This document shows, piece by piece, positions 24,595 through 49,204 of a stretch of 64,000 nt of DNA. The position numbers and the translations under genes were made by a program. The notes under the pieces are model-generated. The model worked only from the letters and a program-made list of their open reading frames with translations. It ran no database searches and was not told the origin of the DNA. Source of the stretch: Opitutia bacterium ISCC 52 (GTDB taxonomy: Bacteria; Verrucomicrobiota; Verrucomicrobiia; Opitutales; UBA2995); contig CP076040.1 in assembly GCA_014529675.2 (NCBI GenBank), positions 62,001 through 126,000 of the forward strand, in the 5' to 3' direction. Position 1 is the stretch's first letter; the number at the start of each line of letters is the position of its first letter.

Positions 24595-25965
24595 TTATTC
24601 TGTCTCAATGGCTGCCATAAATTGATTGAGCTCTTTTTCTAGCGCTTTGACAACCTCAGGATAATCATGGGCCAGGTTCCAGCGTTCCCCGATGTCGGAT
24701 TCCAAATCGTAGAGCTCGTAGTCATTCGTTCCATAATCCATGACATACCGGTGAGGTTTTGCGGGCTCGCGCCCCGGGAGTAAGAGTTTCCAGTTTCCCT
24801 TGCGAATACCTATACCCAGATAAGGGCTGTCCACTTGCCTTACCTGATCGTAGATAAATGTATCACGACCTTCGTCGGTGTTTCCAAAAAGGAGATCGCT
24901 CTGATCCTGCCCATCGATCGCTTTATCTGAAGGTAGATCGGCGCCAGCCAGTGAGACAATAGTGGGTAGAAAATCAATAGTGGCCCAAAGGGCATCTGAA
25001 GTCTTTCCTGCTGGAACTTTACCCGGCCACCGGACGATACAGGGAACGCGGGAGCCTCCTTCGTATGCAGAACCCTTGGCGCCTCTGAGTGGTCCTGGGT
25101 CTCCCCAGAAAATGGTGCCCTCCGGCATAAACCATGCAGGATTGCTGCTGTTGGGTCTACCGATGCGTCCCTGCTTCACGAGGGTGTATCGCGGCTGACT
25201 CCAGGGGCCATTATCGGAGGTAAAAATGACCAGGGTGTTTTCACTCAATCCCAGCGCATCGAGGCGGTCCAGCAATCGTCCGGTTTCAATATCAAATTCC
25301 TCAACCACATCCCCATACAATCCTCCGTCCGAGGTTCCTTTGAACTTGGGAGAGGCATCAATATTGGTATGCATCATCGTATGCGCCAGGTAGAGGAGGA
25401 ACGGTTGATCTGACTTCCGTTTGTTTTCCAAATAGTCGATGGCCTTATCGGTGTACAATCGAGTCAGGCTTCCCATATCCGTTGTTTGCCCGGCAGGCTC
25501 GTTGTTGTGATGAAACTTTACGGTGCCACCGTCGTTCGCTCCCAGTGGGCCAAAGTAATAATCAAAACCCTGGGCATTCGGCATGCGGCCGATGATGGCT
25601 TTACGATTCGAAACATCCCACTTGCCGATGCAGGCGGTCTGGTAGCCTGCAGGTTTAAGTAACTCAGCAAAGGTGATTTCCTCGGCTGGCATATCCCAGC
25701 CTTTACTTCGGATAGGATAGCGACCGGTCAAAAGGGCAGAACGCGAGGGTCCACATACCGGTTGAGCATAGAAGTCGGTAAAGAGCGTCCCTTCTCGTGC
25801 CATCTGATCAAGCCGAGGCGTTTTGATCAGCTCATTGCCATAGCATGCGACATCCCCATAACCCTGGTCGTCGGTGAAGATGATCAACACATTGGGTTGA
25901 TCTGCAGCGAAACAGGATAGGATTGTGACAACAGCCAATAGAAATTGGAGATTTAGATGCTTCAT
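24595..25965 (-). CDS. Secreted sulfatase
   Basis: I start at the ATG at 25965 (456 residues), which has AAGGAA just upstream and opens directly into a signal peptide (MKHLNLQFLLAVVTILSC). The frame stays open to 26058, but that would overlap the previous gene and add a polar extension. The motif is CGPSR with the Cys at 71, after LIIFTDDQGYGDVACYGN. IGKWDVSN replaces the usual GKWHLG, so one of the conserved His residues is absent at that site. FTSDNGPW and YDLESDIGERWNLA follow. It sits 19 bases after the unknown exported protein gene. Confidence 0.92.
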   Translation of the reverse strand: MKHLNLQFLLAVVTILSCFAADQPNVLIIFTDDQGYGDVACYGNELIKTPRLDQMAREGTLFTDFYAQPVCGPSRSALLTGRYPIRSKGWDMPAEEITFAELLKPAGYQTACIGKWDVSNRKAIIGRMPNAQGFDYYFGPLGANDGGTVKFHHNNEPAGQTTDMGSLTRLYTDKAIDYLENKRKSDQPFLLYLAHTMMHTNIDASPKFKGTSDGGLYGDVVEEFDIETGRLLDRLDALGLSENTLVIFTSDNGPWSQPRYTLVKQGRIGRPNSSNPAWFMPEGTIFWGDPGPLRGAKGSAYEGGSRVPCIVRWPGKVPAGKTSDALWATIDFLPTIVSLAGADLPSDKAIDGQDQSDLLFGNTDEGRDTFIYDQVRQVDSPYLGIGIRKGNWKLLLPGREPAKPHRYVMDYGTNDYELYDLESDIGERWNLAHDYPEVVKALEKELNQFMAAIETE

Positions 25966-25984: not shown

Positions 25985-26935
25985 CTATTTATGGACTTTA
26001 GGATGTTTGGGGAGATCGCCTCCAGCGGCAAGATAGTCTTCCTTCTCACCCGGAACATTTTCGTTCTTCTCCCAGAAACGAGTAATCAAATCCGGATCCA
26101 CTTGGCTCAGGTGCTCAGGCTTTTGCATAATACTGGAGACCCAGGCGTTTCTTTGCTTGCGGGTTGCTTCTACGACTCCGGTTTTGAAGTAGTGCACGAG
26201 GCCGAGATCGCTTATATCGTAGGGCTTCACCGTCGCGATTTCTCCGTCACGGCGTGTAACATTAGCGCCCCATCCGCCAGCTCCGAAGTCTGTCCGTGGA
26301 ATTTCCAGAATCGTCACTCCCAGATCACTGATCCGGGCCAAACTAAGATACAATCCACGGCGCAGATCCACCTCGTGAGAATCTAACAAGGGTGGATCAC
26401 CGGCTTTTTTGTTTGCATCGTAGCCTCTGCGACCATCCAGCTCATTCCAATTGCTGTGGGTTACCAGAACGATGTAGCTGAAATTGTAAGCACTCTCCGG
26501 AAGCTCGGTTAGCCAGGCTAGCACGTGTCGTGAATGCGCACCCATGGCGAGACCGACCTTTCCCTTCTTACTGGCATCTGCGAGAACCTGTGCATCCTTA
26601 ACCAGATCCTCCACTTCTACCTTTCTCGGATTCCGGTTGGGAAGGTCGCTCAGAATCGTGACATTCTGTTTGATCCTTGGATTTCTATTCAGTTCTTCGC
26701 CAACTAATTGATTGTCCGCGTCGCCTCCATCCCAGTCATTGATCAGGAATATACGTCCTTCGAATTTCTCTTCCGGGGCAACGATGAGATCGATCGTTCC
26801 ATTGGGTAATTCGAGGGAGGGATCCGCTGCCACGATTGTATTGCAGTACATGAGCCCTGCAAACGTGCAGACCCATCGGATAAATACCGATCCGGGCACC
26901 TTATGGAGACAAACTATGGGGTTGGTCTTTTTCAT
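25985..26935 (-). CDS. Exported protein of unknown function in the sulfatase operon
   Basis: A 316-residue protein I do not recognise. An N-terminal hydrophobic segment (FIRWVCTFAGLMYCNTIVAA) looks like a signal peptide ending near residue 38. The rest alternates beta-rich and helical stretches: FEGRIFLINDWDGGDADN, KKGKVGLAMGAHSRHVLAWL, FSYIVLVTHSNWNELDGRRG, LGVTILEIPRTDFGAGGWG. The strand-turn-HSR and VTHSNWNE segments suggest an alpha/beta core with conserved His and Asp, possibly a hydrolase or lyase. It is embedded between two sulfatase genes with gaps of 7 and 19 bases, so it is almost certainly co-expressed with them and probably acts on the same substrate. Confidence 0.75.
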   Translation of the reverse strand: MKKTNPIVCLHKVPGSVFIRWVCTFAGLMYCNTIVAADPSLELPNGTIDLIVAPEEKFEGRIFLINDWDGGDADNQLVGEELNRNPRIKQNVTILSDLPNRNPRKVEVEDLVKDAQVLADASKKGKVGLAMGAHSRHVLAWLTELPESAYNFSYIVLVTHSNWNELDGRRGYDANKKAGDPPLLDSHEVDLRRGLYLSLARISDLGVTILEIPRTDFGAGGWGANVTRRDGEIATVKPYDISDLGLVHYFKTGVVEATRKQRNAWVSSIMQKPEHLSQVDPDLITRFWEKNENVPGEKEDYLAAGGDLPKHPKVHK

Positions 26936-26942
26936 AAGAAAC

Positions 26943-28322
26943 TTAATTCCCAGATCGCCATCCGGTTCCTGCCTTCTTCATGAGCAGTCCCTGACGATCA
27001 AACGCGAGTTCTTGCTCTGGTGGATAAATCGTATTCACGGAATCCAGGTAATCCATCATTCTTGTGTGCATCGCATCCGCTCGTTCAGGCATCGATTGAC
27101 TAAGGTCTTTGGACTCACTTCGATCGTAGCGTAGGTCAAACAGCTCTACACGGTCGAAAGCCCAGGTCTTTACGATCTTGAAATCCCCTTGCCGCAATGA
27201 TGATTGGGCCGGCCACACCCCAGTTGGATAGTGGAACAGTAGAAAGTCGTTAGACCTTTCGATTGAGCCACGGCCGCCATTAGCCAGCACTGTTAGGAGG
27301 CTACCTCCTTCAATGATTTCGGGCAGTTCAAACGCCGGGTCAATCCAGTTGAGGATAGTTGGCATGAGATCGTAGCCGACTACCGGTGCTCTTGATATGG
27401 ATCCAGCTTTGATTCCCGGACCTCGCACGATAAAAGGCACACGTATCCCACCTTCGAATACAAAGCCTTTGCTGTAGCTCAACGGCCAGGCTTTGCGCCG
27501 GGGATTGCCATGCAGTTTTCGTGGTGATTCGTCATAACCGTTATCGGCGGTATAAATGACGTAGGTGTCATCCGAAATGCCTAGACGATCAATCGCTTCG
27601 AGAATTTGACCAACACCGGTATCCAGGTCTTCATTCATGCCGGCAAACACGGGGTCCGAATGTCGCTCACCCTTCGGCTGGTTTTTATATTTCTCCAGCG
27701 TCTTCGGGTTCGATTTAAAGGTCAGGTGATCGGCGTAGTAGGAAACCTGCAGAAAGAATGGCTGTTCCGTTCTTGCCGTTCTATCCAGGAAATCAACGGC
27801 ACGATCAGTTACCTCAAATGTTCGCTTGGGATCCTCTTTGCTCTTACTGTTACTGCCCTCCCGGTTACCAGTGTCACCATCTGATTCGTCATAGCCACAA
27901 TCCTCTGGGCTCACCGATACATGCCACTTACCGAAGTGGGCGGTGACATAACGGGAATCCGCTTTCTTAATCAAATTTGGAATAGCCAGGTTGGGATCAC
28001 AGAATTGTTTGTGCTGCGGGTCGTTGTGCGTCACCCGAGTCTTAGCCGGACTGATACCAAACTGAATACTGTGTCTTGTTGGGGAACAGACCGGAGCCGG
28101 TGCATAGGCATCGGTAAAGCACATACCTTCTCCTAAGAGACGATCTGTATTGGGTGTCTGGTAAAAATCGCTTTTCGATCCGACTACATCAGGATCGGTT
28201 GGACTGTAGAGGGCGTTCCACCCCTGATCGTCAGCCAGAATCAGGACGATGTTGGGTGAAGCACTATCGGCGAATAAGATCGAACCAAATAGGCAGCCGA
28301 AAAGACAAATAATTGTTTTCAT
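26943..28322 (-). CDS. Secreted sulfatase
   Basis: A 459-residue sulfatase with a short signal peptide (LFGCLFGSILFADSASP). LILADDQGWNALYSPTDPDV and CSPTRHSIQFGISPAKTR (Cys at 79) match the 35964-37346 enzyme closely, marking the two as a paralogous pair with QFG in place of the usual TGR. FGKWHVS, the ADNGYDESPRK loop and LFDLRYDRSESKDLS complete the domain. It lies 7 bases before the unknown exported protein gene. The 136-base gap upstream carries a REP-like element. Confidence 0.93.
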   Translation of the reverse strand: MKTIICLFGCLFGSILFADSASPNIVLILADDQGWNALYSPTDPDVVGSKSDFYQTPNTDRLLGEGMCFTDAYAPAPVCSPTRHSIQFGISPAKTRVTHNDPQHKQFCDPNLAIPNLIKKADSRYVTAHFGKWHVSVSPEDCGYDESDGDTGNREGSNSKSKEDPKRTFEVTDRAVDFLDRTARTEQPFFLQVSYYADHLTFKSNPKTLEKYKNQPKGERHSDPVFAGMNEDLDTGVGQILEAIDRLGISDDTYVIYTADNGYDESPRKLHGNPRRKAWPLSYSKGFVFEGGIRVPFIVRGPGIKAGSISRAPVVGYDLMPTILNWIDPAFELPEIIEGGSLLTVLANGGRGSIERSNDFLLFHYPTGVWPAQSSLRQGDFKIVKTWAFDRVELFDLRYDRSESKDLSQSMPERADAMHTRMMDYLDSVNTIYPPEQELAFDRQGLLMKKAGTGWRSGN

Positions 28323-28458: not shown

Positions 28459-29982
28459 CTAAGGTCTTTTCGACAAATTCTTCGGCAATCCAATTCCTGG
28501 AGCAGCTGGAGGTCTGAGTAAGTGGGCCATGGCTTCTCCCGGTGCTTCTTTCTTCGGTAACCATTTACGATGCTCCGCAATAACGCCGGCGTATTGGGGA
28601 TCCCCCGCCAGGTTGTTGTGCTCCCAGGGATCATTACGATGATCATAGAGTTCTTCGTCGCCGGTACTGTAGCTGATGTAGCGCCAGCGCTCAGAGCGGA
28701 CCGCATGGTTGCCTGGGCCCTCATTCATGAGGGCAGGGCGTACCCATTTCCCGTGCGGGTTTTTAAGTAAAGGTACGAGACTGAGGCCATCGTTGTCTGC
28801 TTTGGGAGGCAGCCCCGCCAGTTCCAGGAGAGTGGGGTAGATATCAATTAGGCCCACCGGTTGATCGATCCGTGTACCCGGAGTGGTGATACCGGGAGCA
28901 ACGATGATGAAAGGCACCCGGTTGGCTTTCTCCCAGAGCGTGAATTTCACACAGGCTTCCTTGTCTCCCAAATGGTAGCCGTGGTCAGACCACAGTACGA
29001 TAATGGTGTTGTCGGCCATACCGGTGGCATCGAGTTTGTCGAGGAGTCGCCCGACCATTTGATCGGCGTAATCGGTTGCTGCCTGGTAGGCTTGAACCAT
29101 ACGAGGAAGACTCCCCGGCGCTTCCCGTGGCTGGGCCGTGGTGTTGTCCCAGATCCAGTATTCCTTCCTTACCATCCGTCGGGCCATATCGCCCACATCA
29201 TCGAGATCTCCCATTGGCATGGGTGGCATGCGCAGGGTTTCAAACGGGTAGCGATCGAAGGTTTCCTGAGGGGCATAGAAGGGTAGGTGTGGATTAAAAA
29301 TCCCTGCGGCGAGAAACAAGGGCTTGTCTTGTCCTGAGCTCGCCGAAGGGCCCATGAACTTCTCCATCTGCGCTTCCACGTATTCACACATGTCGACATC
29401 GATCATTTTCTGATCATGGACGCCCCAGTCGAAGGCGACTCGACCCAGACGTGGATTCGAATCCGGTTTGTAGCCGTTGTAGTTTTTGCCTACTCCGGAA
29501 CCGCGAATATCCAGTTTCTTAAAGAATTCCTGAAAGGCCGGTTTACCTTTCGGTTCCTGACCGGTTGTCCCGTGATGGAAAATCTTGCCTGCTCCTCGTG
29601 TGGCGTAGCCACCCTCCAGTTCGAAGTATTTTGGGATGGTTACCGCATCCGGAATGATCTCTGCCCACGCCGTCTTGTTTCCGTAAACACCGGAAGTAGT
29701 CGGACGATAACCCGTCATGATGGCTGTTCGGGAAGGATTGCAACCCGGCGAAGCACAGTAGGCACGACTGAAAAAGGTGCCGCGTGCAGCCAAGCGCTTT
29801 AGATTGGGTGTTTGGATCGGATTGCCCTCATCAAACAAAGTCGTCCAATCGTTCATGTCGTCGATTGCGATGAAGAGGACATTTGGCCTTGCGATCACTT
29901 GATTCGCTATTGTGCACTCCAGTACCAGGCATGCTACAGATGCTGTTAACCAGGAGATTGTCTTAGATGATTTTAGATTCAT
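28459..29982 (-). CDS. Secreted sulfatase, iduronate-2-sulfatase-like, with repeat insertion
   Basis: A 507-residue sulfatase, sister of the 23090-24571 enzyme: FIAIDDMNDWTTLFDEGNPI, CNPSRTAIMTG with the Cys at 81, GAGKIFHHGTT and LWSDHGYHLGDKEACVKFT. Relative to that sister it carries eight extra residues, GPSASSGQ at 211-218, just before DKPLFLAAGIF. Those residues are encoded by a 24-bp repeat-like element (29329-29352) related to one in the 44256 gene. The insertion is in frame and lies in a surface linker between helix and core strand, so activity may persist. The start at 29982 opens a signal peptide (WLTASVACLVLECTIA). Confidence 0.92.
   Translation of the reverse strand: MNLKSSKTISWLTASVACLVLECTIANQVIARPNVLFIAIDDMNDWTTLFDEGNPIQTPNLKRLAARGTFFSRAYCASPGCNPSRTAIMTGYRPTTSGVYGNKTAWAEIIPDAVTIPKYFELEGGYATRGAGKIFHHGTTGQEPKGKPAFQEFFKKLDIRGSGVGKNYNGYKPDSNPRLGRVAFDWGVHDQKMIDVDMCEYVEAQMEKFMGPSASSGQDKPLFLAAGIFNPHLPFYAPQETFDRYPFETLRMPPMPMGDLDDVGDMARRMVRKEYWIWDNTTAQPREAPGSLPRMVQAYQAATDYADQMVGRLLDKLDATGMADNTIIVLWSDHGYHLGDKEACVKFTLWEKANRVPFIIVAPGITTPGTRIDQPVGLIDIYPTLLELAGLPPKADNDGLSLVPLLKNPHGKWVRPALMNEGPGNHAVRSERWRYISYSTGDEELYDHRNDPWEHNNLAGDPQYAGVIAEHRKWLPKKEAPGEAMAHLLRPPAAPGIGLPKNLSKRP
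29329..29352. repeat. 24-bp in-frame insertion element, copy in sulfatase gene
   Basis: The plus strand reads TTGTCCTGAGCTCGCCGAAG then GGCC. It matches the element at 45732-45755 at TGTCCTGAGCT and, with changes, CGCCGAAGGG against TGTCGAATGGG. It adds exactly eight codons to the sulfatase compared with its paralogue. Family resemblance to widespread short repeats of the GAAGGGCTTGTCCTGAG type is from memory. Confidence 0.6.
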
Positions 29983-30046: not shown

Positions 30047-31027
30047 CTATTTGTCTGTCTCTTTCGAATTTGAAAGATCCAGTATCGGAAGTTCCATTCG
30101 GGTGATATACCTGCACCTGTCATCAGGAAACTTCACTTTCATTCCCCAGAAAACGCCGTTGTTATTGACGCCATTTCCAAAATTCTCAGGGCAGTAAAGG
30201 CCGACTGTTTTAGGTGTCCAATCGGACGTCTTTACAAAGGTGAAACCATCTTTCGACCAGAAGGTGCCGTACCCAAACCCGGCTACACCGTTACGGTGAA
30301 CCCAGGTTGTGAAGGCATGCCCAGGGAACACAGGACTCTTCTCATATTTCGTGTAAGGTCCCAGAAGGTTATCAGAAGTTGCCACCCCGATTTTTGTTTC
30401 GGATGGCTCGGCTCCAAACGGTCTTCCCTTATAATAAAGAAACCACTTGCCGTCGAAAAAGATAATATTCGTATCGTCAATGTGAACACCGTCCCATTCC
30501 TCCTTATTGCCAGTAGGCCAGAGGAGTTTTTTGCCAGACTTTTCCCAGGGTCCATCTGGTGTATCCGCAGTGGCATAGCTGATACCTTTCAGCTCGGCGG
30601 CGCTTCCGTATGCGGTGTAAAAGAGGTAGTAATTTCCGTCATGAGGAACGACGTAAGATGTGATGGCGGCCTTATCGTCGATGTCTCCTTTTTCGCCAAC
30701 AGGAATTGCGACGCCCTGGGCGGTCCATTTGAGTCCATCCGTGGAGGTCGCCAGCCGAATGTGACCTTCCCAACCGTTGGTCACCTCTGGGTGCTGCGTG
30801 TACCACAGGTAGTATTTGCCGTTGTATTTGATAATGTTTGAGGGATCGTGATGGTGCTTGTCTGGCACATCAAGCACGTCCACGTAGACTTCTCTATCGG
30901 ACACCTCGATCAACTCTTTGGGTATTTCGCCAGCCAATGCGGTCTTTTTATTGGGTGCGGTGCAACCGACCAGAACAGTAGCAAACACTGTGGCAGAAAA
31001 TGTAATCAACCGCGTTCTGTTCATCAA
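30047..31027 (-). CDS. Lipoprotein glycoside hydrolase, GH43/GH117-like beta-propeller
   Basis: A 326-residue lipoprotein (lipobox FATVLVGC, Cys at 22) with a five-bladed propeller pattern: HHHDPSNIIKYNGKYYLWYT, HIRLATSTDGLKWTAQG, YLFYTAYGS and EEWDGVHIDDTNIIFFDGKW with FLYYKGR. The Asp in HDPS and the Asp-Asp in HIDDTN are candidate catalytic acids. WDGV.I.DTNII..DGKW..YYKGR resembles GH117 (anhydrogalactosidase) as well as GH43; I cannot choose without a profile search. In the operon with sulfatases it would release monosaccharides from desulfated oligomers at the outer membrane. Gaps are 64 bases to the next gene and 34 to the previous one. Confidence 0.8.
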   Translation of the reverse strand: MMNRTRLITFSATVFATVLVGCTAPNKKTALAGEIPKELIEVSDREVYVDVLDVPDKHHHDPSNIIKYNGKYYLWYTQHPEVTNGWEGHIRLATSTDGLKWTAQGVAIPVGEKGDIDDKAAITSYVVPHDGNYYLFYTAYGSAAELKGISYATADTPDGPWEKSGKKLLWPTGNKEEWDGVHIDDTNIIFFDGKWFLYYKGRPFGAEPSETKIGVATSDNLLGPYTKYEKSPVFPGHAFTTWVHRNGVAGFGYGTFWSKDGFTFVKTSDWTPKTVGLYCPENFGNGVNNNGVFWGMKVKFPDDRCRYITRMELPILDLSNSKETDK

Positions 31028-31061: not shown

Positions 31062-32831
31062 CTACTTCCGTGTGACTTTGACGTAGATCGCACTGCACAA
31101 CTCGTTTCCGTTTATATCGGAAAACAGAGTGCTGAGCTTCGTTTTTCCAGCACCCAACTTCGCAGTAAAGGTGGCATGGGTCGCGTCCTTTCTTGGAACT
31201 ATCGTCTCCTGGAATCCGGCGACATGAATGCTTGCGTAGTGTATCGGACGTTCCCCTACATAACCTGTGAACGGATTGTGAGCCTTTATTTTTTCTCCCT
31301 CAACACCCGAGCTCAAAGCCAAATTTGCCGATTCCGGCCAACGGCGCAGTTCAAATTCATAGGTGCCTGCTTCTGCTACTTCTATGTCCCAATAACCGGT
31401 TGTGTTTGCGGCAACCAAATTGGGTGGGTTGTCACAGTAACCTCCCTGCCAGTCATTGGAAAAGAGCGTCAGACTTGGATCTGCATCGCTCCCGACGGTA
31501 ATGTAGCGGGGTGTATCGAAACGGAGTTTGGCCTCGGTATACCACTGTTCGTAGTGGTCGCGCATGGCCTGTGCGACATCCGGAAATTGTTTTATTACGT
31601 TATTATCCTGATGTGGATCGGTGGCGATATTGTGGAGCGTATCGGGTCCCACGAGGCGCCATTTGTCCCACAGCACAATGGCATGATCCCAGCGAACGGC
31701 TGAGGTATTACGGTTGGAGTATTGAATCACGATTTTGCGGTCATCCAATTTCGATTGTTTGCCCTGTAGCAATTTAGCGAGGCTGGTTCCATTGATGTCT
31801 GCTGATGGTTTCGGCAAACCGCACAATTCAGCCAATGTGGGAAGAATGTCCTGAACCATGGCCAGGTCGCCAATGTCTCGGGCGCCGTGGAATCCTTCCG
31901 GCCAACGCCAGAAGCAACCCACCCGGTGTCCACCATCGAGCATACCGCGTTTGAATCCCTGCATGCCCGCATTGTAGATTTGCGAGGCCTCCTTACTTTG
32001 AGAACCATTGTCATTCAGGTAAATCAAAACGGTGTTCTCCTTTAATCCTTCTTTTTTCAGAAAGGCATCCAGCTTGCCCATATTCTCATCAATGTTGGCG
32101 ATCATGCCATAAAAGGCGGCCGGCACCTCGACCCCGTTAAAGGTCCCCACTTGCGCGTAAGGTTTTGAGTATTCCTCATCGACCCAGTTTGGGACGTGAG
32201 GTGTATTGGTTGGTAAATAGAGGAAGAACGGTTCGTCGGCTTCTTTTTGTTCCTTCATCCAATCCATGGCTTCGCTGAAAAAGATGTCTGTGCAGTAGCC
32301 TTTATACTGTTTCTCAACGCCGTTGTGTTCCAGCCAGGGATCCCAATAGGAGTTCCCGAAATGATCAGCCAAGGAGGTTATGCCCCAAGCCGGATGATGC
32401 AGCGTCTCCTGAAAACCACGATCTTGGGGACGGTGCGGGTAGCTATCGCCCAGGTGCCATTTACCAAAGTGTCCGGTCGAATAACCAGCCTCAGCAAAAT
32501 ACTCGGGCATCAACTTAATTCCATTTCCCATCATGGAGCGTCCCTGGCAAACCGCGGTAGCTCCGTTGCGCATAGCATCCATTCCTGTCATCAATTGGCC
32601 ACGTGTTGGAGTGCACATGGGAGCCACATGAAAGTCCGTCAGACGGAGGCTCTCGGCGTGGAGCTTGTCGAGTTCTGGAGTCTTCAACAATGGATTTCCA
32701 TGACAGCTGTAGTCACCATAGCCCTGATCATCTGTCAGGATCAGGATGACGTTGGGACGGTCTGCCGCGAAGGCAGAAGAAAGCGCGAAACAAAGCGCCA
32801 GAATCAGGTGGTAATAATGTTTAATCTTCAT
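31062..32831 (-). CDS. Secreted sulfatase with C-terminal beta-sandwich extension
   Basis: Starting at the ATG at 32831 (589 residues) gives a clean signal peptide (MKIKHYYHLILALCFALSSA) and an 11-base overlap with the upstream GH32-like gene, consistent with coupling. The frame remains open to 32948 but that stretch is coding in another frame. The motif is CTPTR with the Cys at 73, after LILTDDQGYGDYSCHGN. FGKWHLGDSYPHRPQDRGFQ and LNDNGSQS follow. The last 130 or so residues (TTGYWDIEVAEAGTYEFELR to the end) look like a carbohydrate-binding-type beta-sandwich. That layout is common among arylsulfatases acting on polysaccharides. Confidence 0.92.
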   Translation of the reverse strand: MKIKHYYHLILALCFALSSAFAADRPNVILILTDDQGYGDYSCHGNPLLKTPELDKLHAESLRLTDFHVAPMCTPTRGQLMTGMDAMRNGATAVCQGRSMMGNGIKLMPEYFAEAGYSTGHFGKWHLGDSYPHRPQDRGFQETLHHPAWGITSLADHFGNSYWDPWLEHNGVEKQYKGYCTDIFFSEAMDWMKEQKEADEPFFLYLPTNTPHVPNWVDEEYSKPYAQVGTFNGVEVPAAFYGMIANIDENMGKLDAFLKKEGLKENTVLIYLNDNGSQSKEASQIYNAGMQGFKRGMLDGGHRVGCFWRWPEGFHGARDIGDLAMVQDILPTLAELCGLPKPSADINGTSLAKLLQGKQSKLDDRKIVIQYSNRNTSAVRWDHAIVLWDKWRLVGPDTLHNIATDPHQDNNVIKQFPDVAQAMRDHYEQWYTEAKLRFDTPRYITVGSDADPSLTLFSNDWQGGYCDNPPNLVAANTTGYWDIEVAEAGTYEFELRRWPESANLALSSGVEGEKIKAHNPFTGYVGERPIHYASIHVAGFQETIVPRKDATHATFTAKLGAGKTKLSTLFSDINGNELCSAIYVKVTRK

Positions 32832-34503
32832 CGTAAATACTTTCCATTTGCCAGGCATCGAGTGAGACCAGCTTCGCATCCGCACCCTGCGCACGCAACG
32901 AAACTCCGAGACTGTCTTTTCTTCCCGGATACACACGAGCAGCCACACAGGCTTTCCCGTTCACAAAGACTTCAACCACACTGCGGTCGATAAACACATG
33001 GAGTTTGAGGGGTGCACCTTTCTCACGCAGAAAACTATCAATCTCTGGAGGGCGGGACTGCGCGTCTGGAAGGATGGACGACCTGGAGTTGTCGAGTGTG
33101 ACTACCGTATCATAGACTACTGCACCCGATCTATTGCGTTCCCTGGCCTTAATCACTCCGTAGATCCTGGGATTGTTGCCACGTTCGGGCTGAATGAGCA
33201 GACGGGTAAGTTCTTCCCCTCCTGGTGAGCGCAGCAGTTCAATTTCAATGGTCTGGGCGGACTTCGGATCAATTTTCGCAATCAATTCCATGGTATTGCC
33301 CTGGATATTCTCTAGAACAACTTCCTCATTAGCAGGTAAGCTGAGGTTTTGAACGCTTTGGTGTTTCCCACGGAGCGAAGCATAGTCCCCGGTAGGTTCC
33401 TGACGAATGGGATCGTAGGGATCATCGGGCGCCAGGGTTATTTTGCGCGGTAGCGACATAAGCTGATTCCACCCCTTGCTTGGGTAGCCTGGGTTCATAT
33501 TGAAAATGACATTGATGCCACCCTTACCGTCGGGATAAGCGGAAGGAGCGTGGACGCCACCAGGTCCAGAGGCCCCTTGGTTAAAGCCCCCGCCATCGGT
33601 CGCCACAAATTTCATCCGCTTCTTATCGAGGTCTCCCAGGAGCCATTTCCCGCCCGTCGTGTGGCTGTAGTGAATGAGAATATACTTATCATCTCCAATC
33701 GGCCAGAAGTAGGGACAGGCTCCGTCGTCACCGATGATTCCAAAACGATCCCCTTCCAGGAATTGATGCATGTATTCCCAGTTGACCAAGTCCTTTGAGC
33801 GATGCAGAAATTCCGCGCGCACCCATTTCCCGCCGGGACCATCTTCAGATTGGCCAGCGGTCAGCGCATAATAGTAATCATCACCATCAATCTTCCAAAT
33901 GGAAGGGTCAAAGATTCGGTTCGGCAGTGGGGGTGCCCCGGCCACGGATTCCGGAATCACCGCTTTGCCGGTTAGCTTCTCCCAGTTTAAGAGTAGTGGA
34001 TCACTGGATACAGCAACCATCGAGCCGACTTCCGTATAGTGATACATGGCAATCGCCCGATCATCTTCTATATAGACCGTCCCCGAAAAGCAGGCTCGCT
34101 CCGGATCGGGGTAAATGGCATAAGGTAAATCGCGCCAATGAATCAAATCGTCACTGATGGTATGCCCCCAATGCTGACGAGGAAATTCCGGTGGGTAACC
34201 CTGGTAAAACATATGCCACTGGCCATTCCAATAGCTGAGACCGTTCGGATCATTCAAGCGGTTCTCCGGACTACTGAAATGGTAGCGCGGGTAGTGAGGA
34301 TCTTTTAACAACTCGGCCCGAGACTTGCGAAACCGTTCCAGCAAAGGATTGTTAGCCAATTCCCTTTCCTGTTCTTCCAAAGAGTCCGAAAAGGTAAATT
34401 TGGGGACGGGGGAAGCGTTCTTTCCAGATGCTGTCTGCGCCTCTACGCAGATTGCGAATGCTAATCCCACACCCACCATTGAAGATAACAAGATTCTTTT
34501 CAT
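32821..34503 (-). CDS. GH32-like protein with altered catalytic motifs
   Basis: A 560-residue exported protein. The five-bladed GH32 propeller is clear: NRLNDPNGLSYWNGQWHMFY with the nucleophile Asp85, HWGHTISDDLIHW, CFSGTVY, and a C-terminal beta-sandwich with LHVFIDRSVVEVFVNGKAC. The second motif, normally RDP, reads FDP at 198-200. The third, normally EC with the acid/base Glu, reads DDGACPYF at 259-266, leaving no Glu before the Cys. Classical GH32 enzymes cut beta-fructosides such as levan or inulin. This one may use Asp259 or Asp260, act on another sugar, or only bind. It overlaps the downstream sulfatase by 11 bases and starts 6 bases after another sulfatase. Confidence 0.87.
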   Translation of the reverse strand: MKRILLSSMVGVGLAFAICVEAQTASGKNASPVPKFTFSDSLEEQERELANNPLLERFRKSRAELLKDPHYPRYHFSSPENRLNDPNGLSYWNGQWHMFYQGYPPEFPRQHWGHTISDDLIHWRDLPYAIYPDPERACFSGTVYIEDDRAIAMYHYTEVGSMVAVSSDPLLLNWEKLTGKAVIPESVAGAPPLPNRIFDPSIWKIDGDDYYYALTAGQSEDGPGGKWVRAEFLHRSKDLVNWEYMHQFLEGDRFGIIGDDGACPYFWPIGDDKYILIHYSHTTGGKWLLGDLDKKRMKFVATDGGGFNQGASGPGGVHAPSAYPDGKGGINVIFNMNPGYPSKGWNQLMSLPRKITLAPDDPYDPIRQEPTGDYASLRGKHQSVQNLSLPANEEVVLENIQGNTMELIAKIDPKSAQTIEIELLRSPGGEELTRLLIQPERGNNPRIYGVIKARERNRSGAVVYDTVVTLDNSRSSILPDAQSRPPEIDSFLREKGAPLKLHVFIDRSVVEVFVNGKACVAARVYPGRKDSLGVSLRAQGADAKLVSLDAWQMESIYDED

Positions 34504-34509
34504 AAGGAT

Positions 34510-35922
34510 TTATTCAGATCGTTCCAATGCTTCGAAATCGTTCATGCCCAAATAATCGCGAAGTTTCGGTAGGCCGCCTGGTTCGCTGATGAGAAAATCT
34601 GAGTGGTCGAGCATTCCGGGAGGGCGGGTGTTAGCAGCGAGTTCTTTTGCATGGGCATCGAGGATTGCTTTCAACTCATTTGCCAGCTTGGGGCGTTTTT
34701 CGATCAGGTTCGTTGTTTCACCCAAATCGTTCTTCAAGTTGTAGAGCTCGAACTTCCCTTTACCTCCACGAACCAGTTTCCAGTTGCCGCGGCGAATGGC
34801 ATCGACCTCGTAAAAAAGTACTTGGTGTGGTGATTTTGCTTTCGGTTTCCCGAGCAAGGCTTCCAGGGAGTTTTTCCCATCAATGATGCGGTCGTTGGGC
34901 ATTTCGGCTCCGACTAATTTGGCTAACGAGGGCAAGACATCGACCGAAGCGGTTATCGCTTCGGTGACCTGACCGGCTGGGACGGTTCCCGGCCACCAGG
35001 TGAGAGTCGGTTCCCGCATGTGCCCTTCGTATTTAGGGCCTCCTTTATTTCCGCGAAGGGGTCCGGCGCTCATTCCACGTGCCGGACCATTGTCGGAGGT
35101 GAAAATAAAGAGGGTATTTTCATCAATCCCCAGTTCCTCCAGGGTATCAAGGATTCGACCTACACTGGTATCGACTTCTTCAACGGTGGCTCTATCCACA
35201 TCGCCATCCGCTTTCTTTGCCAGATCCAGCCGACCAAAGCGGGGCAAGTGGACATATGCATGTGGCATATAAAGAAAGAAAGGTTGGTCTTTGTTTTTCT
35301 TTATGAACTTAACGGCCTCATCAGTAATGACCTCACAGAGTAAGGATTGGTCGGCTCCGTCGCTGACATAAGCTACTACTTCGTCCTGCCTGAGAACTGA
35401 AAGGGGCGTGTAGGTTTCTTTAGTGTGCCGGTGACCATTAAGATTAAACGGCCACATGTCGTTGGAGTAGGGAATGCCAAAATAGTCATCGAAGCCATTT
35501 TGCAGGGGTAAAAACTCCCGTTGATCTCCCAGGTGCCATTTCCCGAAAATGCCGGTTCGGTAGCCCACGGATTTCATAGCGTCGCCAATGGTAAACTCGG
35601 ATGGATTGAGACCTCGTTTTTCATTAGGGAAACAAACCACTCCATCCATCCCAATGCGGGTAGCATAGGTGCCCGTCATAAGTGCTGCCCTGGAAGGCGT
35701 GCAGGCGGTGTTAGATGTGTAATATTGGGTAAGGATGTTTCCGCCCCTTGCCATACGGTCCAGATTGGGAGTCTGGTTGATGGTGTTGCCAAAGGGACCG
35801 ATGTCGCCATAGCCCATATCATCAATGAACATGAGCACTACGTTTGGCTTGTCTGCGGCGGCGCAGGTCAAGTGGGTAACGAGAAATATCAGGAATACAG
35901 AAAATGGTTTCTTAGTGAGCAT
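34510..35922 (-). CDS. Secreted sulfatase
   Basis: I start at the ATG at 35922 (470 residues), which gives a signal peptide (MLTKKPFSVFLIFLVTHLTC); the frame extends to 35967 but would overlap the upstream gene. The motif is CTPSR with the Cys at 74 in SNTACTPSRAALMTG, after LMFIDDMGYGDIGPFGN. FGKWHLGDQREFLPLQNGFD and FTSDNGPARG follow, then LYNLKNDLGETTNLIEKRP. Located 6 bases before the GH32-like gene. Confidence 0.93.
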   Translation of the reverse strand: MLTKKPFSVFLIFLVTHLTCAAADKPNVVLMFIDDMGYGDIGPFGNTINQTPNLDRMARGGNILTQYYTSNTACTPSRAALMTGTYATRIGMDGVVCFPNEKRGLNPSEFTIGDAMKSVGYRTGIFGKWHLGDQREFLPLQNGFDDYFGIPYSNDMWPFNLNGHRHTKETYTPLSVLRQDEVVAYVSDGADQSLLCEVITDEAVKFIKKNKDQPFFLYMPHAYVHLPRFGRLDLAKKADGDVDRATVEEVDTSVGRILDTLEELGIDENTLFIFTSDNGPARGMSAGPLRGNKGGPKYEGHMREPTLTWWPGTVPAGQVTEAITASVDVLPSLAKLVGAEMPNDRIIDGKNSLEALLGKPKAKSPHQVLFYEVDAIRRGNWKLVRGGKGKFELYNLKNDLGETTNLIEKRPKLANELKAILDAHAKELAANTRPPGMLDHSDFLISEPGGLPKLRDYLGMNDFEALERSE

Positions 35923-35963
35923 GCGGATAGTTGGTAAGGTTCTAATTCTTTTGTCCGGATAGC

Positions 35964-37346
35964 TCATTTTTTGGGAATTTGTGATTCATCCCAATCGAGG
36001 CGTTTGAAGTAGGCCGTTAGTTGGGTGTAGAGTTCTTTCGTCAGTGCTGGTTGCTCATCCGCCAGATTATTGCTCTCGCCGATGTCCTCGGCCAGGTCGT
36101 AGAGCAGTAGTTGATCTGAGTCGGCATCCTTGATGAGTTTGTGCTGTCCCTGAATGAGCGTGAGATCGTGCCGGTTGTCGGGCTTGGTGTATTTAAAAAC
36201 GAGGAAAGGGTCTTTGCGGCGGATCGGTTGTTTCCCACTGCTTTTCAGATGGTCGAGTAAAGAGGCACCTTCCACTGTGTCTGGAAGCTGGCTCGTGCCG
36301 TTTATGATCTCCATGGCTGTGGTATAGATATCTGTGCCTACTACCGGTTCCGGTGAATGGGTATTCGCTGGGATTCCCGGTCCTCGGACAATAAAGGGAA
36401 CACGAATACCTCCCTCGCTTACATGGTATTTGTGGCTGCGTTGTGGGTAGGCTTTGTAATAACCCCGCTGCTCGACAGGTCGGTGGAAGTCATGCTTGTC
36501 CTCGTAACCATTATCCGCGGTGTAGATGACGTAGGTGTTATCCCGAATGCCCAGTGCATCGATGGTGTCGAGCACACTACCCACTCCGCTATCAAGGTTC
36601 TCATTCATCGCAGCCCACAAAGGACTCTTTTGATACGGGGTCGCCTTGTCCACGTGCTGGGTCTTGTACTTTTCAATCGTTTCCGGTAGGGCCTGGTAAG
36701 TGAGGTGGTTGGCGTAGTGAGAAATTTGCAGGAAGAAGGGTCTGTCTGATTGCACCTGTTCCTTGATGAATTGATTAGCCTTTCTGGTCAGGCTGAAGAT
36801 GAAACGTGGATCCCGGGGGTGAGGCGAATCCGGGTTGTTGCGGTTCTTTCCTCGGGTTGCGTGCGGATTGTGCCCATCCCCGTACTCGGCCACGTCATAA
36901 CCGAGTTCTGAAGGCTCCCACTCGATATGCCATTTACCCATATGCGCACATGCGTAATCCGGATTCGCTTGCTTAAGGCGATTGGCCAGGGCGTCCTTTA
37001 CAACCGCATCGATGTTCTTGCCGATATTGTCGGCTGCCCAGATTTGAAGACTGGATGGGCTGCGGCCAAACTGAATGGCATAGCGGGTGGGTGAGCAGGT
37101 AGGAGCTGGAGCGTAAGCCTGCGAGAAGCGCATGCCTTCCTCGGCTAATTGCGCCAGCCTTGGAGTCTGGTAATAGGTGCTGCCTGATCCCGGAATATCC
37201 GGATGCATCCGAGTGGAAAGTGCGTTCCATCCCTGATCATCGGCCAGAATAAGGACGATGTTGGGTGAGCTCTTCCCAAATGTGAGGGCCGTTGTGCAAA
37301 GCAAGACCCAGAAGAAAAATATTCCTAAAAGATGCTTCGTACCCAT
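35964..37346 (-). CDS. Secreted sulfatase
   Basis: A 460-residue sulfatase, paralogue of the 26943-28322 enzyme: LILADDQGWNALSTRMHPDI, CSPTRYAIQFGRSP with the Cys at 84, and MGKWHIEWEPSELGYDVAEY. ADNGYEDKHDFHRPVEQRGY is followed by LLYDLAEDIGESNNLADEQP. The QFG after the active-site helix and the DQGWNALS opening set this pair apart from the other sulfatases. It has a signal peptide (GIFFFWVLLCTTALTFG). It is the first sulfatase of the operon, 12 bases after the DUF1552 gene. Confidence 0.93.
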   Translation of the reverse strand: MGTKHLLGIFFFWVLLCTTALTFGKSSPNIVLILADDQGWNALSTRMHPDIPGSGSTYYQTPRLAQLAEEGMRFSQAYAPAPTCSPTRYAIQFGRSPSSLQIWAADNIGKNIDAVVKDALANRLKQANPDYACAHMGKWHIEWEPSELGYDVAEYGDGHNPHATRGKNRNNPDSPHPRDPRFIFSLTRKANQFIKEQVQSDRPFFLQISHYANHLTYQALPETIEKYKTQHVDKATPYQKSPLWAAMNENLDSGVGSVLDTIDALGIRDNTYVIYTADNGYEDKHDFHRPVEQRGYYKAYPQRSHKYHVSEGGIRVPFIVRGPGIPANTHSPEPVVGTDIYTTAMEIINGTSQLPDTVEGASLLDHLKSSGKQPIRRKDPFLVFKYTKPDNRHDLTLIQGQHKLIKDADSDQLLLYDLAEDIGESNNLADEQPALTKELYTQLTAYFKRLDWDESQIPKK

Positions 37347-39468: not shown

Positions 39469-42400
39469 TTACGCTACCTGAGATGCTTCTTCCCCTCTGT
39501 TTCGAAACGGCCGGAAATACCACTGCTTCATGTGGCTCAATACCGTCCCACAATCCTCAGCAACTAGCAATGAGCAGGGAATCAAATAAAGCGTAATGAC
39601 CGTGGCAAACACCACGCCGAAGCCAAGGGACACGGCCATCGGAATCAGGAACTGTGCGTGTAGAGAGGTTTCCAGCATTAATGGAAGCAGCCCGACAAAG
39701 GTAGTGATGGAAGTGAGCATGATGGGGCGGAAGCGTTTGCCTCCTGCTTCCAGGCAGGCCTCGAGAAGTGGGATGCCTTCACGTGTTCGCTGATTAACAA
39801 AATCCACCATCACCAGTGAGTCATTTACGACCACACCAGCCAGGGCGAGCATACCGAAGATCGAAAGGTAAGAGGGCGTCAATCCCATGATCATATGCCC
39901 CAGTAGTGCTCCGATCACGCCAAAGGGAAGGGCGATCAAAACAAAGAAGGGTTGGACCATCGACTTGAACGGAATAGCCAGAAGAGCGTATAGAATGAAG
40001 ATCAGGGCGAGGGAGCCGATAATGGTGCGACGCTTCGATTCTTCGGCTTCGGCCACGTAGCCTTTCCATTGGTAGGAGATGCCTTCGACTTCGTTGCAGA
40101 ACTCCTGAATTTGCGGAGTAAGTTCTTTCGATATGCCGATGATATCCACCGTCTCATCCATGGGTTGTGCACCAATGCGAATGATTTCCGCCCGATCGTT
40201 ACGTTCAACAAAGGTGGGTGCCTGGGCAAAATTTATTTCTGCGACCGTGGTGAGAGGGACATCTGCGCCGCGCGGTGCACGGATTTTTATGCGTTCGAAG
40301 GTGTAGAGAGATTCACGTTCGTCATCCGGCAATCGAACCATGACCCGGATGTCATCCACATCCTCTAGCACACGTTGGGCTTGTTCCCCATAAAAGGCCT
40401 GCCTGATCTGGCGTGCCAGCAATTGTTGCGTCAGTCCTAATTCGATGGCCCGTGGTTTGAGAGAGACCACCAGCTCCTCCGCTCTGAAGTTAATATCCGC
40501 CCAGGCGGTGCTGATGCCTTCATAATCCATGAGCAGGTCTCGGATTTTTTTTGCCACTTCGGCTTTCCCCTCCGAGCTGGGGCCGCGCAGTTCGAGGTTT
40601 AAATATTCTTCGTTGTTCTCTCCCCCTTGTTTGAAAGAGGATTCTGAATACACACGGAATTGTCTGGCCCCCGGGATGGGGCCAATGATCTCGGCCCAAC
40701 GATTGGCTATCACGCTGTTTCGGGGTCCGGGTTCGCTTCGACCTTCTGGAGGGATGACCTCCACCTGGACGAACCCTTGCGATTGACTGTACCCTTTTCC
40801 TGGGTACTTAGCGCCTGAGACTAGGGAAACATTGCGGACCAGCGGTTCACCGGTGCCAGGATCGAGAAACTCCTCCTTCAACTGATCGACTGCGCCCACT
40901 ATTCTTCGTATGTAGCGATCTGTGATTTCCACTGGAACATCACCAGGAAAGGCTAGGGTAGCGGTCAGGCGAGCCGTATCGACCGAAGGGAACGATTGAA
41001 AACCGAGGCGGCCGCCTATGCAATAGCCTGCCATAAGTAAACCCATGGTTGTGAAAAGCGCCAGAACCGAAAATCGGTTTGATGTCGCGAACTTGAGGGA
41101 GGGTCGATACACCTTTTCGACAAAACGCTCAAGATTGTTAGCGATGGAACCCTGGAATCGGGTAAAGAAATTTGGGTGACGGCCTACGCGGACATGTTTC
41201 AGGTGAGCCGGAAGGATCAGCTTTGATTCGACGAGGGAGAAAATCAAAACCGCACCTACAATCGGTGGAATCTGTTTCGCAAAATCTCCCCAGACACCGT
41301 CAAAATAGAGCAAGGGCAGGAAGGCGACAATGGTGGTGATAACTCCAAAGGTTACGGGTACGGCGACTTGTTTGGTCCCAAGGATGCTTGCTTCGGTGGG
41401 ATCCATTCCTGTCTTCAGTTGCGTGTAGACATTTTCCCCGGTAATGATCGCGTCGTCGACCACCACACCCAATACCAGGATGTAACCGAAGAGGCTCATG
41501 ATGTTTGCCGAAATCCCAAAAACCGGCATGAGGAGTGCACCTCCTGCAAAGGAAACCGGGATCCCCAACACAACCCAGAATGCTACCTGCGGGCGCAAAA
41601 AGATCCCCAGGATGATCATGACCAAAATGCTGCCTTGGAACAAGGATGTGACCAGGGTATCCAGTCGTCCGCGAATGCTATCCGACTCATCCTTCCAGAT
41701 ATGAAGATTCACACCATCCGGGAAACGATCGTGGGCGTTCTCCACATAGTCGTGTACTTTGTCCGAGATATCGATCGCGCTTTCCTGCCCGACTCGCATC
41801 ACCTCCACGTAGAGTGCTGGTTTCTCATTAAATTCAACAAATTTCGTTCCGCCCTCAAAGGTATCGATTACCGTGGCCACTTCACCGATCAATACATCGG
41901 CGCCGTTGGCCGATCGAATGGGAATTTTCGAAAAATCTTCTTCTGAATACGCCTGTCCTTTTGTTCGTACGTTGAGTCGACCGCTTTCGGTCCGAATGGA
42001 ACCGGCTGGCATATCGATGGAGTTGCGACGGATCGCATCGGCAATATTTTGGAACGTTAGGTTGTAAGACCTGAGTAGCTTTTCGTCAGCCTCAATGGAT
42101 ATTTCCCGATTCCGGTCTCCTTGAATGTTGGTTCGGCTGATCCCAGGAATTTCCAATAAATCATCCCTGACTTGACGAGCGGCTTTCAGAAGATCGTGGT
42201 CGCTCAGATCTCCAGAAACTGCAACGGTGAGCACTTCCCGCGAATTAGCGGATTCGGGGATAAATATGCGGGGAGGTTCGGTTTCTCTGGGGAAGGTATT
42301 GATGGTGTCTACCTGGGCTTTTACGTCATCCATTAATGCCCGAAGATCTACACCGTCTTTGGCTCTCAAATAAAATCGGGCTCGGCCGTTGCTGCCATCG

Positions 42401-42642
42401 GCGTTCAATTCCTTAATGCCCTGAACGCTTTCCAGCGCTGCCTCAACCGGAATGAGAATGGCCTTTTCGATATCCTTGGGTGTGCCGCCTCGGTAACGCA
42501 TATCCATCATTACCAGGTCCCAGCTAAGCGCAGGCGATACTTCCAGTGGTATCTTGAAAAAGGCCGTGTACAAACCTGCCAGCAGGATGCCAACCATGAG
42601 AAAGTTGGCCGCGATGCCATTCTTTGTGAACCAGCGAATCAT
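39469..42642 (-). CDS. RND efflux transporter, AcrB-type inner membrane pump
   Basis: A 1057-residue proton-driven pump of the hydrophobe/amphiphile efflux type: a first membrane helix (GIAANFLMVGILLAGLYTAF), a large periplasmic loop, a second cluster of helices, a second loop, then the last helices. VLGVVVDDAIITGENVYTQL carries the Asp-Asp proton-relay pair of helix 4, and MLALAGVVVNDSLVMVDFVN is the matching helix of the second half. The membrane fusion protein gene precedes it with a 151-base gap containing a REP-like repeat. No TolC-type outer membrane channel is in the window. Substrate unknown; the locus context would allow export of a metabolite. Confidence 0.93.
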   Translation of the reverse strand: MIRWFTKNGIAANFLMVGILLAGLYTAFFKIPLEVSPALSWDLVMMDMRYRGGTPKDIEKAILIPVEAALESVQGIKELNADGSNGRARFYLRAKDGVDLRALMDDVKAQVDTINTFPRETEPPRIFIPESANSREVLTVAVSGDLSDHDLLKAARQVRDDLLEIPGISRTNIQGDRNREISIEADEKLLRSYNLTFQNIADAIRRNSIDMPAGSIRTESGRLNVRTKGQAYSEEDFSKIPIRSANGADVLIGEVATVIDTFEGGTKFVEFNEKPALYVEVMRVGQESAIDISDKVHDYVENAHDRFPDGVNLHIWKDESDSIRGRLDTLVTSLFQGSILVMIILGIFLRPQVAFWVVLGIPVSFAGGALLMPVFGISANIMSLFGYILVLGVVVDDAIITGENVYTQLKTGMDPTEASILGTKQVAVPVTFGVITTIVAFLPLLYFDGVWGDFAKQIPPIVGAVLIFSLVESKLILPAHLKHVRVGRHPNFFTRFQGSIANNLERFVEKVYRPSLKFATSNRFSVLALFTTMGLLMAGYCIGGRLGFQSFPSVDTARLTATLAFPGDVPVEITDRYIRRIVGAVDQLKEEFLDPGTGEPLVRNVSLVSGAKYPGKGYSQSQGFVQVEVIPPEGRSEPGPRNSVIANRWAEIIGPIPGARQFRVYSESSFKQGGENNEEYLNLELRGPSSEGKAEVAKKIRDLLMDYEGISTAWADINFRAEELVVSLKPRAIELGLTQQLLARQIRQAFYGEQAQRVLEDVDDIRVMVRLPDDERESLYTFERIKIRAPRGADVPLTTVAEINFAQAPTFVERNDRAEIIRIGAQPMDETVDIIGISKELTPQIQEFCNEVEGISYQWKGYVAEAEESKRRTIIGSLALIFILYALLAIPFKSMVQPFFVLIALPFGVIGALLGHMIMGLTPSYLSIFGMLALAGVVVNDSLVMVDFVNQRTREGIPLLEACLEAGGKRFRPIMLTSITTFVGLLPLMLETSLHAQFLIPMAVSLGFGVVFATVITLYLIPCSLLVAEDCGTVLSHMKQWYFRPFRNRGEEASQVA

Positions 42643-48900: not shown

Positions 48901-49204
48901 AGTTGTATCCGTCTTCAATTTCAAGCGTTACCGTCCCTCTGCCTGAGTTGGCTCGTGCGGTCAGCTCCTTAATCCCCTCAATATCAAACAGAGCTTCTTC
49001 AAGACGCGTCACAATAGCTTGTTCAACTTCCCCCGGCGTAGATCCCCGATAGGTGACCGACACATTGATCTCTCGAAACTCCCGGTCTGGGTACTCTTGC
49101 AGAATGATTTCGTTTCCACCCCAGATGCCTCCAGCTACAATACCAACCATAAGCAGGTTGGCGGCCACCCCGTTGCGGGTAAACCAGGAGATCAGTGAAT
49201 GCAT
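45995..49204 (-). CDS. RND efflux transporter, second AcrB-type pump
   Basis: A 1069-residue pump of the same family as the 39469 gene but clearly distinct. The N-terminus is SWFTRNGVAANLLMVGIVAG, the proton-relay helix reads TLGIVVDDAIVTGENVFQHM, and the second-half helix MMALSGVVVNDSLVLVDFMN. It has no adaptor gene of its own; the nearest is at 42794, beyond the EF-hand sulfatase. It follows the sigma factor and FecR-like genes with a 64-base gap, so it may belong to their operon. Substrate unknown. Confidence 0.92.
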   Translation of the reverse strand: MHSLISWFTRNGVAANLLMVGIVAGGIWGGNEIILQEYPDREFREINVSVTYRGSTPGEVEQAIVTRLEEALFDIEGIKELTARANSGRGTVTLEIEDGYNLSEKLDEVTNRVSTIRTFPPEAERPQISLRNVLQRVITIVLSGNLTEKDNKLLGEQLRDEISNLPNISIVTLKAVRPYEIAIEVSESTLRQYGLSFDQITRAIRRSSVDLSAGSVKTETGRILLRTNQQAYHQEDFAKITVLTRSDGTKILLQDIADIKDGFSEIPIVSKYNGKQAIAIDVYRAGSQNVIEVGDTIKAFIEAKQDQLPPGIKLDVWDDDSERIKIRLNTLKDSAILGFVLVVGILSLFLRPILAFWVALGIPIAFGGAFFILPQMGVTLNIGTLIAFILTLGIVVDDAIVTGENVFQHMQRGATPLSAAINGTHEVSIPVIFGVITTMVAFLPLLLMTGTRGAIYGSVPVVVIPVLFFSLIESKLILPAHLKHSASLASEKKKPGPFTRFQQSISSGLEDFIQNQYRPFLNYLLVHRYFTFSVFAGLLLIFLSLVLGNRIAYRASVSAPSDTTTILLLMPAGTNFEVTQQKVNLIEAAALKLKKQVNERFGTTVIKNVFATAGGMPFQPAGYQTRGPAAGVAELGEVLLELTPSEIRDVAYSSRDLVNELRPLAPAIPEAENYSFSYTRDESEVMSFSLALPDVSKLKEASVDLQQKLASFEGLYDIEDSYERSNDQFNLDLKPEAEYLGITATNLAQQVRTAFYGTEVQRIQRGRDEIQVMVRYPEKERRSLASLNTMMIRTANGTEVPFETVASISSDKSLPTILRMDRKRVINVNANGDPDKLDVAAMEKEILNEFLPELAAAKYPGMTFEPSGRSARIRQANKDMQQGIYFVIAVIYALLAIPLKSYIKPLIVMSAIPFGVVGAIAGHWIMARIFGFNGGNPILTITSIMGMMALSGVVVNDSLVLVDFMNQQLKKGHSINKVVRQAAERRFRPILLTSLTTFFGLLPLMFEDSPQAVWMIPMAVSLGWGIVFATFITLILVPVLILIFNDVSQFFYHLYGLDNSYLEETEPAI

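Follow-up and report, generated by a model that had tools for sequence, protein, structure and literature searches.

The standard N-terminal fingerprint of nucleoside hydrolases is given as DxDxxxDD (PMC8910321). HopQ1 is reported to have DXXXDXDD in place of DXDXXXDD, and its authors state that they detected no nucleoside hydrolase activity (PMC3608555). As to the degradation of red algae, a report on Pontiella agarivorans (Kiritimatiellota) describes growth on dried Porphyra, with GH86 and GH117 abundant (PMC10880615).

A Catenovulum plasmid locus and a Persicobacter gene fusion show that some glycan loci contain nucleoside-hydrolase-like proteins. These proteins resemble L019, and Pfam places L019-like proteins in its Sde182_NH-like family. 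The Catenovulum protein (L045:3965-5203) adjoins an alpha-galactosidase-like gene; a sulfatase and a family-43 glycosidase are two genes away, and the same locus has a TonB receptor. In Persicobacter (L047:565-2343) the Sde182 nucleoside-hydrolase-like domain is fused to a GH43 domain. Relatives of the L019 type were found in one of 266 genomes and in three plasmid records, and in none of the viral contigs searched; blastn with the Sde182-type L021 returned a single 3% match. Full-text literature searches found nothing that links nucleoside hydrolases, polysaccharide utilization loci and sulfatases, and nothing for DUF1593.

Here we analyse one gene in a 64,000-nucleotide stretch of the genome of Opitutia bacterium ISCC 52 (the window). 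Its product, P0001, had been singled out in a preliminary description as an unrecognised exported protein and as the best candidate in the window for a new enzyme or binding protein of sulfated glycan breakdown.

The gene and its product

The coordinates of the gene, its motifs and its neighbours are collected in Table 1. Read on the plus strand, the interval is interrupted by stops; the open frame exists only on the minus strand, from 26935 to 25985, and translates to 316 amino acids. The gene has a G+C content of 0.508, much like the 0.506 of the window. The upstream sulfatase gene ends at 26943, seven bases from the P0001 gene, and the gap to the downstream one is 19 bases, given a start at 25965 after an AAGGA site; the longest downstream sulfatase ORF, to 26058, would overlap the P0001 gene, and the 19-base gap presupposes an internal start. 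With that start, both spacings to the flanking sulfatases in the preliminary description agree with the ORF positions. The signal peptide reported there corresponds to a hydrophobic N-terminus ending in NTIVAADP, a region poorly conserved in the four-member alignment described below; judged by eye, the protein is likely exported.

Table 1. Positions of the P0001 gene, its conserved stretches and neighbouring genes in the window
Feature	Coordinates	Strand	Basis or remark
Gene for a 316-aa, likely exported protein of an unnamed family (P0001)	25985..26935	-	Open frame, homologues, codon-position divergence
Putative N-terminal hydrophobic export signal, residues 1-38	26822..26935	-	Judged by eye from the translation
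Asp cluster NDWDGGDxDN, residues 66-75	26711..26740	-	Invariant except residue 73; end of first predicted strand (61-66)
GAHSRH, residues 132-137	26525..26542	-	Invariant in 4/4; after predicted strand 127-131
HSNWNELDGR, residues 160-169	26429..26458	-	Invariant; end of predicted strand 155-161
EIPRTDxGxGGWG, residues 211-223	26267..26305	-	At and past end of predicted strand 208-213
DxSDLGxxHYxKTG, residues 240-253	26177..26218	-	Mostly on predicted helix 243-252
Downstream sulfatase (PF00884)	24595..25965	-	Pfam
Upstream sulfatase (PF00884)	26943..28322	-	Pfam
Sulfatase	28459..29982	-	
3,6-anhydro-alpha-L-galactosidase-like gene	30047..31027	-	PDB sequence matches; Pfam gives GH43 and GH32N
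Sulfatase	31062..32948	-	Longest ORF overlaps next gene; true start probably internal
GH32-type glycoside hydrolase	32821..34503	-	
Sulfatase	34510..35967	-	
Sulfatase	35964..37346	-	

Further along the window, two large genes that look by eye like RND-type transporters (39469-42642 and 45995-49204) have a sulfatase between them at 44256-45833, and positions 1102-5316 encode a 1404-residue exported protein with, again by eye, a neutral-ceramidase-type look and extra domains.

A rare and conserved family

Searches of Pfam and NCBIfam up to E 10 and of PHROGs up to E 1 returned no family for P0001, and no match among PDB sequences was convincing, so that the protein is indeed unrecognised, as first described. 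In particular, the Pfam profiles PF00884, PF01156 and PF07632 do not match it up to E 10, and the latter two are listed for none of the four members of its family. Two apparent matches were set aside as chance: one to a streptococcal pilin at E 8e-8, which is really two copies of a single 16-bit match with an i-Evalue of 0.04 each, and one to Lar_N at E 0.18, seen in only one of the four members. Full-text literature searches found no description of the protein.

P0001 is single-copy in its own genome, as judged by a whole-genome search. Scanning a species-genome collection by exact peptide patterns, an approach that catches close relatives only, yielded 100 candidate stretches, three of them with relatives. 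Surveys that used the protein or its alignment as query, which overlap and which sample the larger groups, gave matches in two of eight genomes of the window genome's family; its class gave matches in 3 of 384 genomes (one judged chance) and its phylum in 4 of 387 (two judged chance). One genome matched in each of three other surveys, covering the family of the Jejuia genome (397 genomes), the phylum of that genome (395) and the order of G094 (43). Among the matches dropped as chance were L007 and L008 (18.8 and 16.4 bits; E 0.001 and 0.006), whose listed frames are unlike the P0001 family, and L015 (22 residues, 18.9 bits). No relatives were found in the plasmids, phages, IMG/VR or E. coli genomes searched. 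The family is thus rare in the genomes searched.

Four distinct members, from two phyla, make up the family as we have it: the window protein and those of an Opitutales MAG, a Kiritimatiellales MAG and a Jejuia (Flavobacteriaceae) MAG. The last is L004 and the other two loci are L003 (in genome G002) and L002 (in G094); L005 and L006 exactly duplicate stretches of L003 and L002, respectively, and are not counted as extra members. Over the alignment, the three other proteins share 57-65% identity with the window protein; in the best local stretch the figure is 60-72%. In the alignment 124 columns are invariant, and Asp, His, Asn, Arg, Glu and Trp account for many of these. The four members differ from one another at 55-72% of third codon positions and at 19-25% of second positions. 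Because the third positions differ so much more than the second, the open frame is more than a chance one: the gene is real and its protein is under selection, and the purifying selection on the family is strong. Since each copy closely resembles its own locus in G+C, any transfer of the gene between these lineages does not look recent.

Sulfatases and other glycan genes around P0001

Between 20.0 and 37.4 kb the window holds eight sulfatases. The product of the anhydrogalactosidase-like gene among them has as its best PDB sequence match an entry named 'Glycoside Hydrolase', followed by several anhydro-alpha-L-galactosidases, and we take the gene to be GH117-like. That product is short (326 aa), with a TTG start and an N-terminus that by eye is lipoprotein-like. 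In L003, two sulfatases are followed on one strand by a porphyranase-type gene (PF18206, PF18040; presumably GH86) and then by the P0001 homologue. The Jejuia locus has a GH31 gene, the homologue, a sulfatase 15 bases further on, an alpha-L-fucosidase and a porphyranase-type gene, and the short L002 contig carries, besides the homologue, a Gfo/Idh oxidoreductase, a sulfatase and a gene that bears a weak likeness to an alpha-galacturonidase model. This last gene (L002:4739-6562) encodes an exported protein of at least 608 residues that runs off the contig; its alpha-galacturonidase likeness is far below the cut-off, and Pfam gives no match at E 0.01. A full-text literature search for Jejuia together with porphyranase found nothing.

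Whether homologues always sit beside sulfatases was a question raised by the preliminary description. A sulfatase lies within two genes of the P0001 member in all four loci and directly adjacent in two, which favours the link to sulfated glycans proposed there. We estimated the background with a home-made sulfatase profile in the window genome (G000) and in one Jejuia contig, where 13 of 20 and 4 of 16 sampled 16.8-kb stretches, respectively, held at least one sulfatase. With 13 of 20 such stretches positive in the window genome, compared with 4 of 16 in the Jejuia contig, the association is suggestive, not decisive. The window genome is very sulfatase-rich: the stretches L048-L067 contain 22 sulfatase frames in 336 kb, or roughly 300 in the 4.8-Mb genome.

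The best matches of the window sulfatases in the three other loci have only 23-40% identity (the 40% over only 60 residues), and the best long sulfatase match between loci is 38% over 591 residues, compared with 58-72% among the P0001 copies themselves. Since the sulfatases are so much less alike than the P0001 copies, the P0001 gene does not seem, from these sequences, to travel with them. A travelling cassette that includes P0001 was considered and dropped, because the P0001 copies resemble one another far more than their neighbours do.

Both the sulfatase background of the window genome and the low similarity of the neighbouring sulfatases are also what one would expect of a passenger unrelated to galactan, found near sulfatases merely because these genomes are full of them. 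In the Jejuia contig, however, only about 3% of sampled positions are in a sulfatase or within 200 bases of one, and the Jejuia member is 15 bases away, on the same strand as the nearby fucosidase and porphyranase-type genes. All four members, moreover, are among glycan genes, and we consider a passenger improbable.

The neighbours also speak to the substrate. A porphyranase-type gene is near P0001 in two of the four loci examined (L003 and L004). Across 63 genomes PF18206 was found in 14, namely three of the four carriers of P0001 versus 11 of the 59 non-carriers, a hypergeometric chance of ~0.03 in a set of hand-chosen and related genomes; the window genome has no PF18206 match. Because porphyranase-type genes occur in two loci and an anhydrogalactosidase-like gene in the window, the neighbours point to red-algal galactan. 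With porphyranase-type, alpha-L-fucosidase, GH31 and anhydrogalactosidase-like genes around it, P0001 likely has a role in algal galactan breakdown. The earlier proposal of a new enzyme or binding protein of sulfated-glycan breakdown is supported in part: these neighbours make a role in the pathway likely, and the association with sulfatases by itself is suggestive.

Conserved motifs and predicted fold

Both AlphaFold models described below predict strands at residues ~61-66, 92-96, 127-131, 155-161 and 208-213. In both, four of the five conserved stretches in Table 1 are at predicted strand ends, and the fifth (240-253) is on a helix. Of the segments that the preliminary description picked out as conserved-looking, GAHSRH is invariant in all four members, VTHSNWNE is invariant from H160 onwards, and RTDFGAGGWG is invariant except at F217 and A219, which vary. 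Within the Asp cluster, residue 73 is A, Q, V or K across the four members and residue 75 is Asn. As the L003 copy stops near residue 275, we place the conserved core at about residues 42-275.

A non-catalytic exported protein that binds glycans or hands them over, with the conserved polar residues lining a binding groove, would fit a small single domain that matches no catalytic family, is rare, and is near glycan genes in four of four members. The invariant Asp cluster, His, Glu and Arg, mostly at predicted strand ends, nevertheless look more like an active site, and we consider such a binding protein unlikely. If the protein is an enzyme, the strand spacing and the AHSRH after predicted strand 127-131 resemble by eye the nucleophile elbow of an alpha/beta-hydrolase-type esterase. 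Such an enzyme would strip the galactan of acyl or methyl groups, and its nucleophile at the strand-helix turn would be S135 of GAHSRH. Nucleophile elbows have the form G-x-S-x-G, which the invariant A-H-S-R-H does not fit, and the place filled by H137 in P0001 is usually small. There is no esterase match in Pfam, and a profile of two alpha/beta-hydrolase-type proteins from the window showed no signal, with 81 of 100 shuffles reaching the real score. No alpha/beta hydrolase was recognised among the matches listed for either model, which excludes nothing. We hold an esterase to be quite unlikely.

The two models themselves, one of the full window protein from the four-row alignment (model 1, mean pLDDT 52.5) and one of the core with L003 first (model 2, mean pLDDT 48.4), are both poor. 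Foldseek gave no match at E 0.001 or better for either. By VIA's own rule, Z values of 6-7 are uninformative and such matches count as ties, and no Z reached 8. The best VIA match of model 1 is a biliverdin reductase (Z 6.2, 158 residues aligned, 4.3 Å), and no nucleoside hydrolase is among its best 50 matches in Foldseek or VIA. For model 2, VIA ranks first 7jlu_B (Z 6.7, 167 aligned, 5.1 Å), presumably XopQ, and places nucleoside hydrolases at ranks 2, 4 and 6: 2c40 (Z 6.5, 157 aligned, 4.7 Å), 3g5i (RihA; Z 6.2, 156 aligned, 4.7 Å) and 3t8i (Z 6.0, 157 aligned, 4.5 Å). Imine reductases are in the same list (8bk1, Z 6.3; 9r79, Z 6.0). Foldseek gives 2c40 a probability of 0.87 with model 2, at rank 38 only, behind TIM barrels and sugar dehydratases. 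Both VIA lists being rich in Rossmann enzymes (biliverdin reductase at Z 6.2, imine reductases up to 6.3), one might think of a Rossmann-type oxidoreductase or epimerase acting on the released sugar. These Z values, however, are in the uninformative range, the first strand is followed by NDWDGGD rather than by the glycine-rich GxGxxG turn, and export would be unusual for such enzymes; we hold a Rossmann enzyme to be very unlikely.

The nucleoside-hydrolase idea was drawn from the motifs before model 2 existed. The Asp turn is T-D-I-G-G-D-P-D-D in L021, and the turns of L016 (D-I-E-A-D-P-D-D) and L020 (D-I-T-N-E-P-D-D) have the same Asp spacing, with other or Glu residues; that of the P0001 family, N-D-W-D-G-G-D-x-D-N, is one residue longer. 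These three turns are of the DXXXDXDD type reported for HopQ1, and the Asp cluster of P0001 resembles this variant motif. DxDxxxDD is not intact in the family: D67, D69 and D74 fit, residue 73 is variable and residue 75 is Asn. By eye, GAHSRH[AV] after strand 3 can be overlaid on the nucleoside-hydrolase G-x-x-[TS]-x-x-A, and S-D-L-G on the S-x-L-G of the L019 branch. HMM searches in both directions gave many shuffles that outscore the real sequences, the best real ranks being 29, 195 and 323 for three nucleoside-hydrolase profiles and 156 in reverse. With hhalign, probabilities against nucleoside-hydrolase-type profiles were below 5%. In pairwise Z-scores the best of 16 nucleoside-hydrolase-type proteins ranked 10th of 55, behind 9 of 39 controls, and in a semi-global column test 76 of 150 shuffles were at or above the real score. 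Column-shuffled hhalign with three profiles had 0, 1 and 5 of 100 shuffles reaching the real score, in alignments out of structural register; 36 of 100 did so for the C-terminal half, and 95, 5, 69, 9 and 81 of 100 for unrelated control profiles. The calibrated sequence tests of the link are thus negative, or positive only out of register.

A proposed role for P0001

Our preferred reading, which we offer tentatively as one possibility, is that P0001 takes part in the breakdown of sulfated galactan as an exported, nucleoside-hydrolase-like sugar hydrolase that depends on a metal. More doubtful is the wider proposal of an unnamed family of exported sugar hydrolases with the nucleoside-hydrolase fold, cleaving a galactan-derived sugar and passed singly between Verrucomicrobiota and Flavobacteriaceae. 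Export (judged by eye), the binding of a metal, the fold, the hydrolase activity and the substrate are all inferred, and involvement in the pathway is more probable than the nucleoside-hydrolase fold. As a hydrolase of this kind, P0001 would be a single-domain alpha/beta protein (about residues 42-275) in the periplasm or outside the cell, acting on sulfated red-algal galactan fragments beside sulfatases and galactan glycosidases. A metal ion, held by the Asp cluster that follows the first strand (D67, D69, D72, D74 and N75), would position a water for attack on the anomeric carbon of a residue derived from the galactan. The sugar would be bound by GAHSRH, HSNWNELDGR, EIPRTDxGxGGWG and D240-H248, which would also provide the acid/base groups.

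Being so rare, conserved and faithful to algal-galactan loci, the family makes a good target in the search for an unassigned step in the breakdown of sulfated galactan. Should the nucleoside-hydrolase reading be true, it would also help explain the presence of Sde182-type proteins near glycosidases and fused to them.

Comparison with known systems

P0001 has sulfatases (PF00884) as neighbours in all four loci while lacking a PF00884 match itself. Likewise, it shares its genomic company with anhydrogalactosidases and porphyranases (which we take to be GH117 and GH86) and matches none of their profiles. In the inosine-uridine nucleoside hydrolases (PF01156; 2c40, 3g5i, 3t8i) an Asp cluster ends the first strand, as it is predicted to do in P0001; in nucleoside hydrolases this cluster and a downstream Asp hold a Ca ion, and the activity is that of a ribohydrolase. 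These enzymes are cytosolic, however, whereas P0001 is predicted to be exported, and P0001 differs further in its broken DxDxxxDD, in the lack of a Pfam match, and in Z values below 8 on a weak model.

The divergent branch of Sde182 NH-like proteins (PF07632; L019, L044-L047) offers another comparison. P0001 shows no significant in-register sequence similarity to this branch in our tests, appears by eye to be much shorter between strands 2 and 3, and has an Asp turn with one extra residue and with Asn in place of the last Asp. Nonetheless, the two have in common an export-type N-terminus (by eye), a turn of GGD-x-D-[ND] type behind strand 1, conserved G..S/T, H, E and S-x-L-G landmarks whose order is, again by eye, similar, and a place in glycan loci.
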